The notes under the pieces: generated by a model | The model's input: only the letters and a program-made list of their open reading frames with translations | Told to the model about the DNA's origin: nothing | Databases searched by the model: none | DNA from: Flavobacteriales bacterium | GTDB taxonomy: Bacteria > Bacteroidota > Bacteroidia > Flavobacteriales_D > UBA2798 | Direction of reading: 5' to 3' | Assembly: GCA_019694795.1 (NCBI GenBank) | Contig: JAIBBF010000001.1 | Coordinates: 66,370-130,369 of the forward strand | Length of the DNA: 64,000 bases | Position numbers and translations under genes: made by a program | Part shown: positions 49,099 through 53,836 of the stretch, in pieces | Layout of the letters: each line of letters begins with the position of its first letter | Numbering within the stretch: the stretch's first letter is position 1

Positions 49099-52000
49099 AT
49101 GAAACGAATATTTATTCTCCTGGTACTTTCCATACTGATTATTCCAATCAAAGCACAGGTGTACGATCCATTATTTCCTCCGAATACCTATCGTGCCAAC
49201 GATAATCCACAGTACTGGAAAAACCGTATTCCATTTGAAGGTTACTGGCAACAGGATGTACATTATATTATCAAAGCAAAAATCAATGAGCAAACGGATA
49301 TCATTGATGGTGATCTGACTTTGATTTATACCAACAACTCGCCCGATGATTTGCCTTTTGTTTATTTCCACCTGTACCAGGAAGCATTTCAACCCGGATC
49401 TTATTTCGACAAACTCAATCACGCGAATAATAGCTACCCGAATTATGGTCCTTATGAAAAACTCGGATTAGGAACGGAAGTCAGTGAAGTAATCAGCGCG
49501 GGACACGTCCTGAAAACGGAACAAGACAATACCATTTTAAAAGTATATCTCGAAAAACCGATCAAAAGCGGAACCAGCGTTGAATTTCACATTCGTTTTA
49601 AAACCTATTTCGATAATGAGGGCGGAGTTGGAAGAAGATTCAAACAATTTAAGACGAATGGTTACAATCACTATGATGGTGTTCACTGGTACCCGCGTAT
49701 CAGTGTGTACGACCGGAAATTTGGTTGGGACACCTACCAACACCTCGGCAAAGAATTTTATGGCGATTACGGATGTTTTGATGTGGAACTGGAATTTTCT
49801 TCGAACTACATTGTAGAGGCCACCGGAAATCTCATTAACCGAAATGAAGTTTTACCTGCAGAATTAAGAGCAAAACTCGATATTAAAAATTTTACTAAAC
49901 CCATTCCGGAATCTGCCATTTCAGAAATTATTCCTTACGATTCTACAAAACGTAAAACCTGGAAGTTTCATGCAGAAAATGTCCACGACTTTGCATTTAC
50001 TGCAGATCCAACCTATCGTATTGGAGAAGCCAGCTGGAATGGTATTACCTGTATTTCGGTAGCGCAGGAACACCATGCATGGAAATGGCAAAATGCTGCA
50101 GAATACACCGCAAAGATCATTGAAACCTATTCCACCGATTTCGGAATGTATGTTTATCACAAAATGGTAGTTGCAGATGCACGCGACGGAATGGAATATC
50201 CGATGTTGACATTAGACGGAGGATTTGAACCCGATTATCGCGGACTCCTAGCTCATGAAGTAGGCCACAACTGGTTTTTTGGTCAGGTAGGAAACAATGA
50301 AACTTACCGTGCTGCATTAGATGAAGGATTCACACAATTTCTCACCGCATGGGCACTTGAACATATTGACGGGGATACCATCATTAAAACTCGTCCGAGA
50401 AATTCCTACAGCAATAAATTCAAACATTACGATTTGGTACGCGAAACTTCCGTTTACGGAGGATACCTACGCGATGCTGTAAAAGGAGAAGATGCATTTT
50501 TAAATACCCATTCCGATGATTTCGAAAGCGCATTGGGACATGGCGGAGGTTATCGTCATGTGTATTACAAAACAGCTACCATGTTGTATAATCTTCAATA
50601 TGTATTAGGCGATGAATTGTTTTTAAAAGCGATGAAACATTATTTTGATCAATGGAAAATTGCTCACCCTTACATTGAAGATTTTAGAAATAGCATTATT
50701 CAGTATACAAAAGTCGACCTCAATTGGTTTTTCGATCAGTGGTTCGAAACCAAAAAGTCGATCGATTACTCCGTAAAACATGCACGTTTTGGAGAGGAAA
50801 AAAATCAATATAAAATCACCTTCGAACGCAAAGGTGAAATGCAAATGCCGATTGATTTTGTTGTTATTGGTGAAAATGATTCTACCTATTCCTTTCACAT
50901 CCCGAATACCTGGTTTGTAAAACAAACAGAGGCCACCGTATTACCCAAATGGACCGGTTGGGGCAAACTCAACGAAAGCTATGAAGCGGTAGTCATTTTA
51001 CCTGCAGGAATTAAAGACATCATCATTGATCCCAGCAATCGTCTGGCTGATATTGATCAATTGAACAACCGTTTAAAATTGCCGGTGAAGTATGAGTTCG
51101 ACTCCCGCATTTATAATACACCGGATCCTCACAATTACCAGGTGTTTGCTCGTCCCGATTTATGGTACAACGGTTACGACGGAATTAAAGCCGGGGTTCA
51201 CGTGAATGGAAATTACATGAACTACAAACATATTTTCGATCTCAATCTTTGGATCAATACCGGATTCATGCACAATCTGCCCAATTGGGTTCAGTCGAAC
51301 GATGGCATAAATAATTATTTCGATCCCATTTCGGTTCGTTTGAATTACAAAACCGGATTAAATAAAAAATTGGGAAAAGCGAATTTCCTATTTGGCGGAA
51401 AAATTCTCGACGGATTAAAATCGGTAGAAACAGGAATTGAAAAATGGAGCGAAAGTGAGAAAGTCAGAATGTACGCCAGTGCAAAACTGATGTACAGAAA
51501 AGATACAGCCGACAGAAACTATCTGCTTTATCCTGACCAATGGTTGGCGGATAAATTCAATAACACATTGAATGTTGGTCTGGATAAAAAATACAATTAC
51601 AAAAATGGAAATGGATTTGTGAATTTTAATTTGCGCAGCTCCGCATTAGGAAGCGATTACTCCTATGCGCAATTATCCATGACCTCTATTCACCGCACTA
51701 AAATCTGGAGAACAACCTTAAGTACACGAATTTTTGCGCAATACGGAACAGGAACAGATTTACCACGGGAAAGTGCCCTATACATGGCAGGTGCCAATCC
51801 GGAAAAATTAATGGACAGCAAATACACCCGTTCCATTGGTATTGTTCCGAATGATTGGGCCGGTTCATATGGAGCAAGCACCAATCACTTTCAGGCCGGT
51901 GGCGGATTAAATCTGCGCGGTTATGCAGGGTATTTATGTCCGGAACAAGACAGCATCGGCAATATTTCTTATTACTATGCCGGCAACAGCGGGGCGAGTA

Positions 52001-52320
52001 TTTCAGCCGAACTGGATCTCCGAGATATCGTAAAATGGAAACCCCGCAAATTGAGCCGGTATTTTGGTTTAGATATTTATCTGTTTGGCGATGCAGGTGT
52101 AATGAGTAAAAACATCGACGGAAAAGAAATAAAAGCTACAACACTTCGCGCAGATGCGGGAATCGGAAGTGCATTGCATATTAAGAAATTTGGTCCGCTC
52201 GAAATGGTAGAACCACTGGTTATTCGTTTCGACATGCCCTTATTCCTAAATGCAATTCCGGCTAGCGACAATAATTATTTTCAGTTTCGTTGGGTAATGG
52301 GAATCAGTCGTTCTTTCTGA
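49099..52320 (+). CDS. M1 zinc aminopeptidase with C-terminal outer-membrane barrel-like half
   Basis: After a signal peptide (RIFILLVLSILIIPIKAQ) comes an M1 peptidase: amino-end binding region GMEYPMLTLDGGF near 372, zinc motif H386-EVG-H390, and the third ligand E409 in DEGFTQF, at the correct 18-residue spacing. From about 660 to 1073 the chain changes to alternating strands with aromatic ends, including GGGLNLRGYAGY near 934-945, similar to the RGY motif of Omp85-type barrels, and finishes in a terminal F. The mature protein is therefore probably membrane-embedded at its C-terminus. The start is at 49099 rather than 49093 since the signal begins there. Confidence 0.9.
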   Translation: MKRIFILLVLSILIIPIKAQVYDPLFPPNTYRANDNPQYWKNRIPFEGYWQQDVHYIIKAKINEQTDIIDGDLTLIYTNNSPDDLPFVYFHLYQEAFQPGSYFDKLNHANNSYPNYGPYEKLGLGTEVSEVISAGHVLKTEQDNTILKVYLEKPIKSGTSVEFHIRFKTYFDNEGGVGRRFKQFKTNGYNHYDGVHWYPRISVYDRKFGWDTYQHLGKEFYGDYGCFDVELEFSSNYIVEATGNLINRNEVLPAELRAKLDIKNFTKPIPESAISEIIPYDSTKRKTWKFHAENVHDFAFTADPTYRIGEASWNGITCISVAQEHHAWKWQNAAEYTAKIIETYSTDFGMYVYHKMVVADARDGMEYPMLTLDGGFEPDYRGLLAHEVGHNWFFGQVGNNETYRAALDEGFTQFLTAWALEHIDGDTIIKTRPRNSYSNKFKHYDLVRETSVYGGYLRDAVKGEDAFLNTHSDDFESALGHGGGYRHVYYKTATMLYNLQYVLGDELFLKAMKHYFDQWKIAHPYIEDFRNSIIQYTKVDLNWFFDQWFETKKSIDYSVKHARFGEEKNQYKITFERKGEMQMPIDFVVIGENDSTYSFHIPNTWFVKQTEATVLPKWTGWGKLNESYEAVVILPAGIKDIIIDPSNRLADIDQLNNRLKLPVKYEFDSRIYNTPDPHNYQVFARPDLWYNGYDGIKAGVHVNGNYMNYKHIFDLNLWINTGFMHNLPNWVQSNDGINNYFDPISVRLNYKTGLNKKLGKANFLFGGKILDGLKSVETGIEKWSESEKVRMYASAKLMYRKDTADRNYLLYPDQWLADKFNNTLNVGLDKKYNYKNGNGFVNFNLRSSALGSDYSYAQLSMTSIHRTKIWRTTLSTRIFAQYGTGTDLPRESALYMAGANPEKLMDSKYTRSIGIVPNDWAGSYGASTNHFQAGGGLNLRGYAGYLCPEQDSIGNISYYYAGNSGASISAELDLRDIVKWKPRKLSRYFGLDIYLFGDAGVMSKNIDGKEIKATTLRADAGIGSALHIKKFGPLEMVEPLVIRFDMPLFLNAIPASDNNYFQFRWVMGISRSF

Positions 52321-53836
52321 TTCCAGCTTTACGAGCAAGTTTCGCGCCTAAAAAACGAATCTCCGGAGAAACACCGGAAAACCAGACCAGCAACGCAAAA
52401 ACAAGCGCAATGATGCTGGAACGATAAGCTACATTAAAAAAAACGGCTTTTAATTTTTCGGCCATTGCTGCATCATTGGAATAATGCATTATTTCCGGAA
52501 GATAATATCCAATCCCAAAGGGAACCAGTAAACAAATCAGCATTGCAATATTGCTTTTATGAAAAGGAGCAATGTTGAATTTCCGGTATAAAAATTCAGC
52601 TTTTAAAACATTATAAATTAAAATACAAAAAGCAGTAGCAATCGCAGCACCGGTGATACCCATAACGGGAAGCAATATTAAATTTGTAAGGACTGCAAGG
52701 GAAAGTAAGATTACATTATAATAAAAATTATACCGGTAGTAAGGCGTTGCAGATAATATCACGCCATTTATGGAAGTAAACAAATCAAACAATTTCGAAA
52801 TTCCTAAAAACAAAAAAGGATATTTAGCTACACGAAAAGGTTCCGGCAACAAGGCCAGCATTGTATCGATATTGATCCAGATTAAAATAAAAATGATTCC
52901 GCCCACCAGTGTTTGGTGCAGGGAATTGGAACGATATAACTTCCGGATATTATCCCAATCGTTCCGGTGTACCGATTCATTGACCACTGCCAATGAAACA
53001 TTAACCAGCGACCTTCCCGGCAATGAAATAACAGTGGCCATAAAAAAGGCCAGTTGATAATATAAAATATCCGCAGAACCGATTATGGCACCGATCATTA
53101 TGACATCAATCTTATTGATAAAAATATTGGCTCCGCTATCGAGCACCGAATAGGCACCGAAGGATAGCAATTCATTGCGCTCTTTTTTATCGGCAGGTTT
53201 TTTAATCTTGAATAACCGGAATCCGCCAATTGTAAATAGCATTACAAAAAACTGCAAAGCATAAGCTAAAACCGAATACCAGAACAAAGCAACAAAATCG
53301 ATTTTACCGAGGTAATACAATGCAAAACCAAGAATGAGAATGATGCGGATAAAGACCTCATTAAAAAACGATCCAAGGGTATTTTTAAAATCAGCAATGG
53401 CAATTCCGTTGAGCGAGCGGAAATAGGTCATAAATACAGTGTGCAAAAACAAAATGATCACCAGAAATCCGACATCCATCACAGGTTCTTTCACAATGAT
53501 TCCCATGAACCAATATCCGCCAATACCTAAGAACAGCGCCAGAATAAACATCCCAATAAAAGGAAACAACCAGGTGTAATAATGCAATTCTTCCCGCCGG
53601 TTTTCTGCCCTGAAACGAGGCATAAAGCGAACGGCAATGTTGATGGCGCCAAAATTTAAAAATTGAGAAAAGACCACCGCCCAGGCAACAATCAATTGCA
53701 GCAATCCGAATTTTTCCTTCGAAATTTCATCGGAGAACATAAACGGAACAATCACCAGATTGGTGAAAGCACCAATGCTAAAGCCGATTAAAAGATTAAC
53801 CGCACTAAAAATTCCTTGTCTGGCAACTATACCCAT
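52304..53836 (-). CDS. Oligosaccharide flippase-like membrane protein (Wzx/MATE type)
   Basis: A 510 aa protein with about 14 transmembrane helices and N-terminal GIVARQGIFSAVNLLIGFSIGAFTNL, the pattern of the polysaccharide-biosynthesis flippase family. Such proteins move lipid-linked oligosaccharides across the inner membrane. It could serve the pseudaminic-acid-containing glycan encoded beyond the dioxygenase gene, whereas the 33-45 kb polymer has its own ABC exporter. It overlaps the peptidase gene tail-to-tail by 17 bases. Confidence 0.87.
   Translation of the reverse strand: MGIVARQGIFSAVNLLIGFSIGAFTNLVIVPFMFSDEISKEKFGLLQLIVAWAVVFSQFLNFGAINIAVRFMPRFRAENRREELHYYTWLFPFIGMFILALFLGIGGYWFMGIIVKEPVMDVGFLVIILFLHTVFMTYFRSLNGIAIADFKNTLGSFFNEVFIRIILILGFALYYLGKIDFVALFWYSVLAYALQFFVMLFTIGGFRLFKIKKPADKKERNELLSFGAYSVLDSGANIFINKIDVIMIGAIIGSADILYYQLAFFMATVISLPGRSLVNVSLAVVNESVHRNDWDNIRKLYRSNSLHQTLVGGIIFILIWINIDTMLALLPEPFRVAKYPFLFLGISKLFDLFTSINGVILSATPYYRYNFYYNVILLSLAVLTNLILLPVMGITGAAIATAFCILIYNVLKAEFLYRKFNIAPFHKSNIAMLICLLVPFGIGYYLPEIMHYSNDAAMAEKLKAVFFNVAYRSSIIALVFALLVWFSGVSPEIRFLGAKLARKAGIRKND

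Follow-up and report, generated by a model that had tools for sequence, protein, structure and literature searches.

Members of the Omp85 superfamily have known roles in outer-membrane assembly and in secretion. Their barrels are usually accompanied by POTRA domains, which are not universal, as the noNterm subfamily is without them. Loop 6 (L6) carries a motif of the type (V/I)RG(Y/F) and joins barrel strand 11 to strand 12; its arginine pairs with a (F/G)xDxG motif on strand 13. Omp85 barrels with an even number of strands have a periplasmic N-terminus. M1 aminopeptidases usually have a helical C-terminal domain. Heinz and Lithgow (2014, PMC4104836) surveyed the superfamily and listed ten architectures; a search of their paper for the term ‘peptidase’ gave no result. 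Their ‘Metallo’ subfamily resembles the protein described here in having a metal-dependent hydrolase domain ahead of the barrel, but that domain is PF00149, unrelated to M1 (PMC4104836). PlpD, of the PL-Omp85 type, combines a patatin domain and one POTRA with a 16-stranded Omp85 barrel, and its enzyme domain has been shown to lie in the periplasm (PMC11116518).

We analyzed a stretch of 64,000 nucleotides from a Flavobacteriales bacterium (the window), in which an open reading frame without internal stop (49099-52320, + strand) encodes a protein of 1073 residues. As in PlpD, an N-terminal hydrolase is followed by a C-terminal 16-stranded Omp85-type barrel, and the enzyme is likely periplasmic; unlike in PlpD, the enzyme is an M1 zinc peptidase, no POTRA precedes the barrel, and the barrel is matched by neither PF01103 nor PF19143. 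What is new is the combination: the fusion is of the enzyme-Omp85 kind, as is PlpD, but the enzyme differs and POTRA is missing. No description of an M1-Omp85 fusion was found in the open-access literature, and earlier notice elsewhere is possible. The co-occurrence of an M1 part and a barrel in one protein, first noticed in a first-pass annotation of the sequence, is confirmed and far beyond chance. In our preferred, probable reading, the barrel keeps an active M1 zinc aminopeptidase at the inner, periplasmic side of the outer membrane. The features of the gene are as follows.

49099-52320, +: whole gene, fusion of M1 peptidase and Omp85-type barrel (1073-residue frame; full-length orthologues)
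49099-49155, +: predicted signal peptide, residues 1-19 (sequence reading; low-confidence N-terminal segment in the model)
49246-51033, +: M1 peptidase domains I-III, residues 50-645 (PF01433; AlphaFold2 model; Foldseek to IRAP/ERAP1, E 1e-22)
50188-50202, +: GMEYP, residues 364-368, equivalent of the GxMEN motif of M1 exopeptidases (M365, E366 and Y367 invariant, 36/36)
50254-50268, +: zinc site HEVGH, residues 386-390 (H, E and H invariant, 36/36)
50323-50325, +: third zinc ligand, E409 (invariant, 36/36)
50563-50565, +: Y489, counterpart of the tyrosine in VYEKGA of E. coli PepN (phmmer alignment; invariant, 36/36)
51034-51135, +: linker, residues 646-679 (one short strand only in the model)
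51136-52317, +: 16-stranded Omp85-type beta-barrel, residues 680-1073 (AlphaFold2 models, Foldseek, profile comparison, strand amphipathicity)
51751-51987, +: loop L6, residues 885-963, between strands 11 and 12 (AlphaFold2 models)
51913-51924, +: LRGY lid motif, residues 939-942 (R940 in 34/34 relatives)
52084-52098, +: FGDAG lock motif on strand 13, residues 996-1000 (F996 and D998 in 34/34)

The peptidase half

The M1 half matches PF01433 (Peptidase_M1) with E 2e-13 and 50.8 bits against a curated cut-off of 27.7, and this is the only Pfam family found in the protein, with no patatin or POTRA domain. At E<=1 Pfam matched neither a POTRA domain nor the helical domain IV of M1 enzymes, and both are absent from the AlphaFold2 model, in which domain III leads through the linker directly into the barrel. 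The first-pass annotation had assigned HEVGH and E409 to an M1 catalytic site, and rightly so: the two fit the HExxH-18-E spacing (386-390 and 409), which is kept in all 36 aligned relatives, as are the catalytic residues as a whole (HExxH, E409, MEY and Y489). Compared with GxMEN, GMEYP keeps the methionine and glutamate and has tyrosine for asparagine, again in 36/36. In a Foldseek search with the full-length model, M1 chains dominate the matches, IRAP and ERAP1 (E 1e-22) among them. The protein shares with M1 aminopeptidases (PepN, ERAP1/IRAP, LTA4H) the HExxH-18-E and GxME motifs, the catalytic tyrosine and domains I-III, and differs from them in that a barrel replaces the helical C-terminal domain and in having GMEYP instead of GxMEN. 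Judged from the sequence, the M1 zinc-peptidase core is complete, and we infer zinc binding and aminopeptidase activity from these computed domains and residues.

The predicted signal peptide ends between IKA and QV, and no lipobox cysteine is read in the sequence. Upstream lie nadC and a YihY/BrkB gene, and downstream a convergent flippase gene; these neighbors are common only to some near relatives and are found again at only 4-8 of 37 loci, so that operon context allows no functional inference and gives no hint to the substrate. The 3’ end of the gene overlaps that of the convergent flippase-like gene (52304-53836, - strand) by 17 bases (52304-52320).

The barrel half and its orientation

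Residues 661-1073 have neither a Pfam match (PF01103 and PF19143 included) nor a PDB sequence match, and we therefore relied on fold search and profile comparison. For the fold search the barrel was modelled on its own, because M1 chains swamped the full-length Foldseek results. AlphaFold2 with related sequences predicts 16 strands in the full-length protein (mean pLDDT 80, pTM 0.78), and the same 16 strands when the barrel is modelled alone (pLDDT 78, pTM 0.80). In both models the LRGY loop has 11 strands ahead of it and five after it. The strand count and the position of the RGY loop, which the first-pass annotation had proposed to check, thus agree with its suggestion of a barrel-like C-terminal part with an Omp85-type motif, a part that measures about 395 residues in our analysis; the terminal phenylalanine that it had pointed out is F1073, the last residue of the protein. 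The barrel alone retrieves only Omp85 structures (BamA or TamA) among its top 50 PDB matches, at E 1e-11 to 1e-8. Because the superposition is loose (rmsd 7-14 Å; TM up to 0.60 by target and about 0.4-0.5 by query), we take the class of fold as well supported but the detailed shape as less certain. Over 395 genomes, the barrel profile weakly picks up Pfam-confirmed Omp85 proteins (TamL-like, BamA, barrel-only Omp85 and the patatin-Omp85 protein L116), and profile-profile comparison matches the barrel to these Pfam-confirmed barrels with a probability of 97%.

The lid-lock motifs of BamA and TamA, RGY in L6 and FxDxG on strand 13, have been defined before (PMC4490367). In the fusion protein the lid motif lies within GGGLNLRGYAGY (residues 934-945), FGDAG (996-1000) sits on predicted strand 13 (residues 989-1003), and strand 14 holds the invariant glycine G1021, an arrangement also seen in BamA and TamA. 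The lock motif has the BamA/TamA form (FxDxG, not GxDxG). R940, F996 and D998 are identical in all 34 relatives that reach the region. By the logic of the lid lock, R940 and D998 are expected to occur as a pair in an Omp85 barrel; among 39 aligned barrels, both are present in 34, neither in five, and no barrel is mixed. The five form one tree branch and may represent one event. The fusion protein is like BamA, TamA and TamL in barrel fold, RGY-bearing L6 between strands 11 and 12, strand-13 FxDxG and strand-14 glycine (PMC4490367), but it has a peptidase and no POTRA domains.

A soluble beta-rich C-terminal half, with the enzyme periplasmic or secreted, would fit the missing Pfam and PDB sequence matches and the existence of soluble M1 relatives of about 630 residues. 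Against it stand 16 amphipathic strands, with a hydrophobicity alternation exceeding that of all 2000 within-strand shuffles, the Omp85-only fold matches, the Omp85 profile match, and lock motifs on the right strands. Moreover, orthologues with a soluble M1 domain as C-terminal half were not found; the barrel-less relatives end after domain III and are without the C-terminal half altogether. We regard such a soluble half as extremely improbable. Structure prediction, fold search, profile comparison and conserved motifs together support an Omp85-type barrel, which is predicted to be closed and 16-stranded.

In the anchoring mechanism that we favor, the protein would be exported by Sec via its signal peptide, and BAM would insert the C-terminal barrel via the terminal aromatic residue. 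The R940-D998 lid lock would hold L6 within the barrel lumen and shut the outer face, and the M1 domain, taking the place of POTRA, would hang into the periplasm on its short linker. There it may trim N-terminal residues off peptides at the membrane, for example newly imported ones or those freed from envelope proteins. Some observations weigh against this mechanism: POTRA is missing, the Foldseek superposition is loose, GMEYP differs from GxMEN at its last residue, the gene neighborhood varies, and the second class described below has catalytically dead members.

The first-pass annotation had left the peptidase on either the periplasmic or the outside face. Display on the cell surface via the barrel, as in the older type Vd autotransporter model of PlpD, would let the enzyme digest external peptides, and Bacteroidota do expose many enzymes at their surface. 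This is at odds with the periplasmic N-terminus of even-stranded Omp85 barrels, with the intact lid-lock residues, and with the linker of only about 35 residues between domain III and strand 1. For PlpD, experiments have refuted surface display (PMC11116518). We find surface display improbable, and of the two options the periplasmic one is favored, because of the even-stranded Omp85 topology, the intact L6 lid lock and the precedent of PlpD. The barrel fold and the lock motifs are results of computation; the orientation and the substrates are inferred.

We looked at BamP, of the F. johnsoniae BAM complex, as a possible peptidase on account of its suggestive name, and rejected it: the paper defines BamP as ‘periplasmic’ and mentions no peptidase.

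Relatives and loss of the catalytic site

The architecture recurs in related genomes, as the first-pass annotation had asked: a genome-collection scan with full-length alignment found about 30 relatives that align over the full length of the protein (45-62% identity), in MAGs of Flavobacteriales, Chitinophagales and further Bacteroidota as well as in the isolate Taibaiella soli, which also has the second class described below (L159, L267). Ignavibacteria-type genomes hold relatives at 28-34% identity. Within this class dN/dS is 0.03-0.09 in both halves, with dS near saturation in most pairs; both are under purifying selection, and the M1 half has the lower dN. A barrel match at E<=1e-10 within a frame of at least 990 residues occurs in about 39 of the 395 genomes sampled from the phylum (the window’s class and relatives), and the zinc site HExxH-18-E is present in all 11 of the more distant large fused frames that were read in detail. 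The M1-barrel architecture is widespread in Bacteroidota.

Several loci merit separate mention. Ignavibacteria-type loci L065 (6015-12637, + strand) and L178 carry tandem M1-barrel gene pairs whose members come from two different tree branches. The M1-barrel frame at L109 (1756-6561, - strand) has 1602 residues with the Peptidase_M1 match at residues 871-1066, and its long N-terminal extension may or may not be translated. A frame of 1117 residues at L121 (815-4165, + strand) has a weak match to a PD40/WD40-like propeller and a C-terminal half that matches the barrel profile (E 1e-10); it is a candidate for another domain joined to the same type of barrel. A split gene in one genome (G001, L075) was rejected as a real disruption, since an undetermined base (X in the frame) at the break points to an assembly fault.

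The barrel profile as such matches 130 of the 395 genomes. Most strong matches are standalone barrels of 400-470 residues from one Bacteroidota family, with motifs such as SGGANLRGY and without a Pfam match. The barrel resembles noNterm Omp85 proteins in being POTRA-less and in having standalone homologues, but here it is fused to an enzyme, and the standalone homologues also go unrecognized by Pfam. The standalone barrels at L035-L063 lie beside a NUDIX-like gene, together with an acetate-kinase-like or a lipoprotein gene, and L035 has a Peptidase_C14 match.

The window’s genome encodes a second M1-barrel protein of 1037 residues (L002, on G000:C31), whose class is nearly universal in the order, occurs across Bacteroidia and is present in 66 of the 395 genomes, and was absent from one named Flavobacterium genome searched. 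Its barrel is homologous to that of the first class (97% in profile comparison) and has no RGY; the same loop carries GxFK, in which, on our reading of the alignment, the lysine corresponds to the arginine of RGY. Among 30 second-class proteins, K/R and the D of [FY]xDxG are both present in 24, both missing in four and mixed in two; the losses are confined to one family and are hence not independent.

The zinc site is kept in 13 and lost in 27 of 40 second-class loci. At 26 loci of families f16 and f17 (L237, L238, L240, L241 and L243-L264), HExxH, the third glutamate, GMEYP and mostly also the tyrosine are replaced, in f17 with an NPxYGLNQLPSF-like stretch in place of GMEYP. L236 (family f15), where the site is partly broken, is apparently a separate loss. 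All 27 dead proteins keep their length and the K-D pair, close pairs have dN/dS of 0.04-0.12 in both halves, and dead and active forms are homologous over their full length (BLASTP E 8e-58). The M1 half of f16 and f17 is therefore predicted to be catalytically dead yet under purifying selection. Since these members stay full-length and constrained, the fusion outlives catalysis and has a role beyond peptidolysis in those two families; peptidolysis cannot then be the sole function of the architecture.

On these dead members rests the proposal that the barrel is a working Omp85 insertase or translocase, with the M1 fold as a client-handling periplasmic arm in place of POTRA and peptidolysis as an extra step that some lineages dropped; we think this unlikely. 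At the same low probability, the M1 fold would be a new type of periplasmic arm with which a POTRA-less Omp85 barrel binds its clients, be they outer-membrane proteins or peptides; the window’s class would also trim them, and two Bacteroidia families would have a dead, binding-only pseudo-peptidase next to a barrel whose lock residues remain strongly constrained. Such a role would agree with the strict conservation of lid-lock residues in the BamA/TamA form, with the loss of all or most catalytic residues in 27 of 40 proteins that keep length, lock pair and low dN/dS, and with the existence of standalone barrels of the same family. It would also agree with the dN values, the lower usually being that of the barrel in dead members and that of the M1 half in the active class. 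However, POTRA is absent, the window’s genome has two canonical Omp85 proteins, and the catalytic residues are invariant (36/36) in the window’s class. In addition, an Omp85 barrel with no known insertase activity is at work in PlpD (PMC11116518). We therefore prefer a barrel that anchors an active peptidase.

History and meaning of the fusion

When other M1 peptidases serve as the root of the tree, the barrel-less M1 proteins of the order (630 residues) form one clade inside the fused forms (SH-aLRT 99), in a quick LG+G4 search with some long branches and one row (L106) trimmed at the wrong anchor. As the soluble proteins nest inside the fused ones, they have probably lost the barrel. The tree favors one barrel loss over a recent gain by the window’s lineage, which would make the fusion old.

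In PlpD, an Omp85 barrel is reused for holding an enzyme in the periplasm, and the M1-barrel family would do the same with a peptidase and without POTRA. The family is common, yet Pfam and NCBIfam see its M1 domain only. With active and dead members at hand, it becomes directly testable whether the Omp85 barrel is a mere anchor or a working part.
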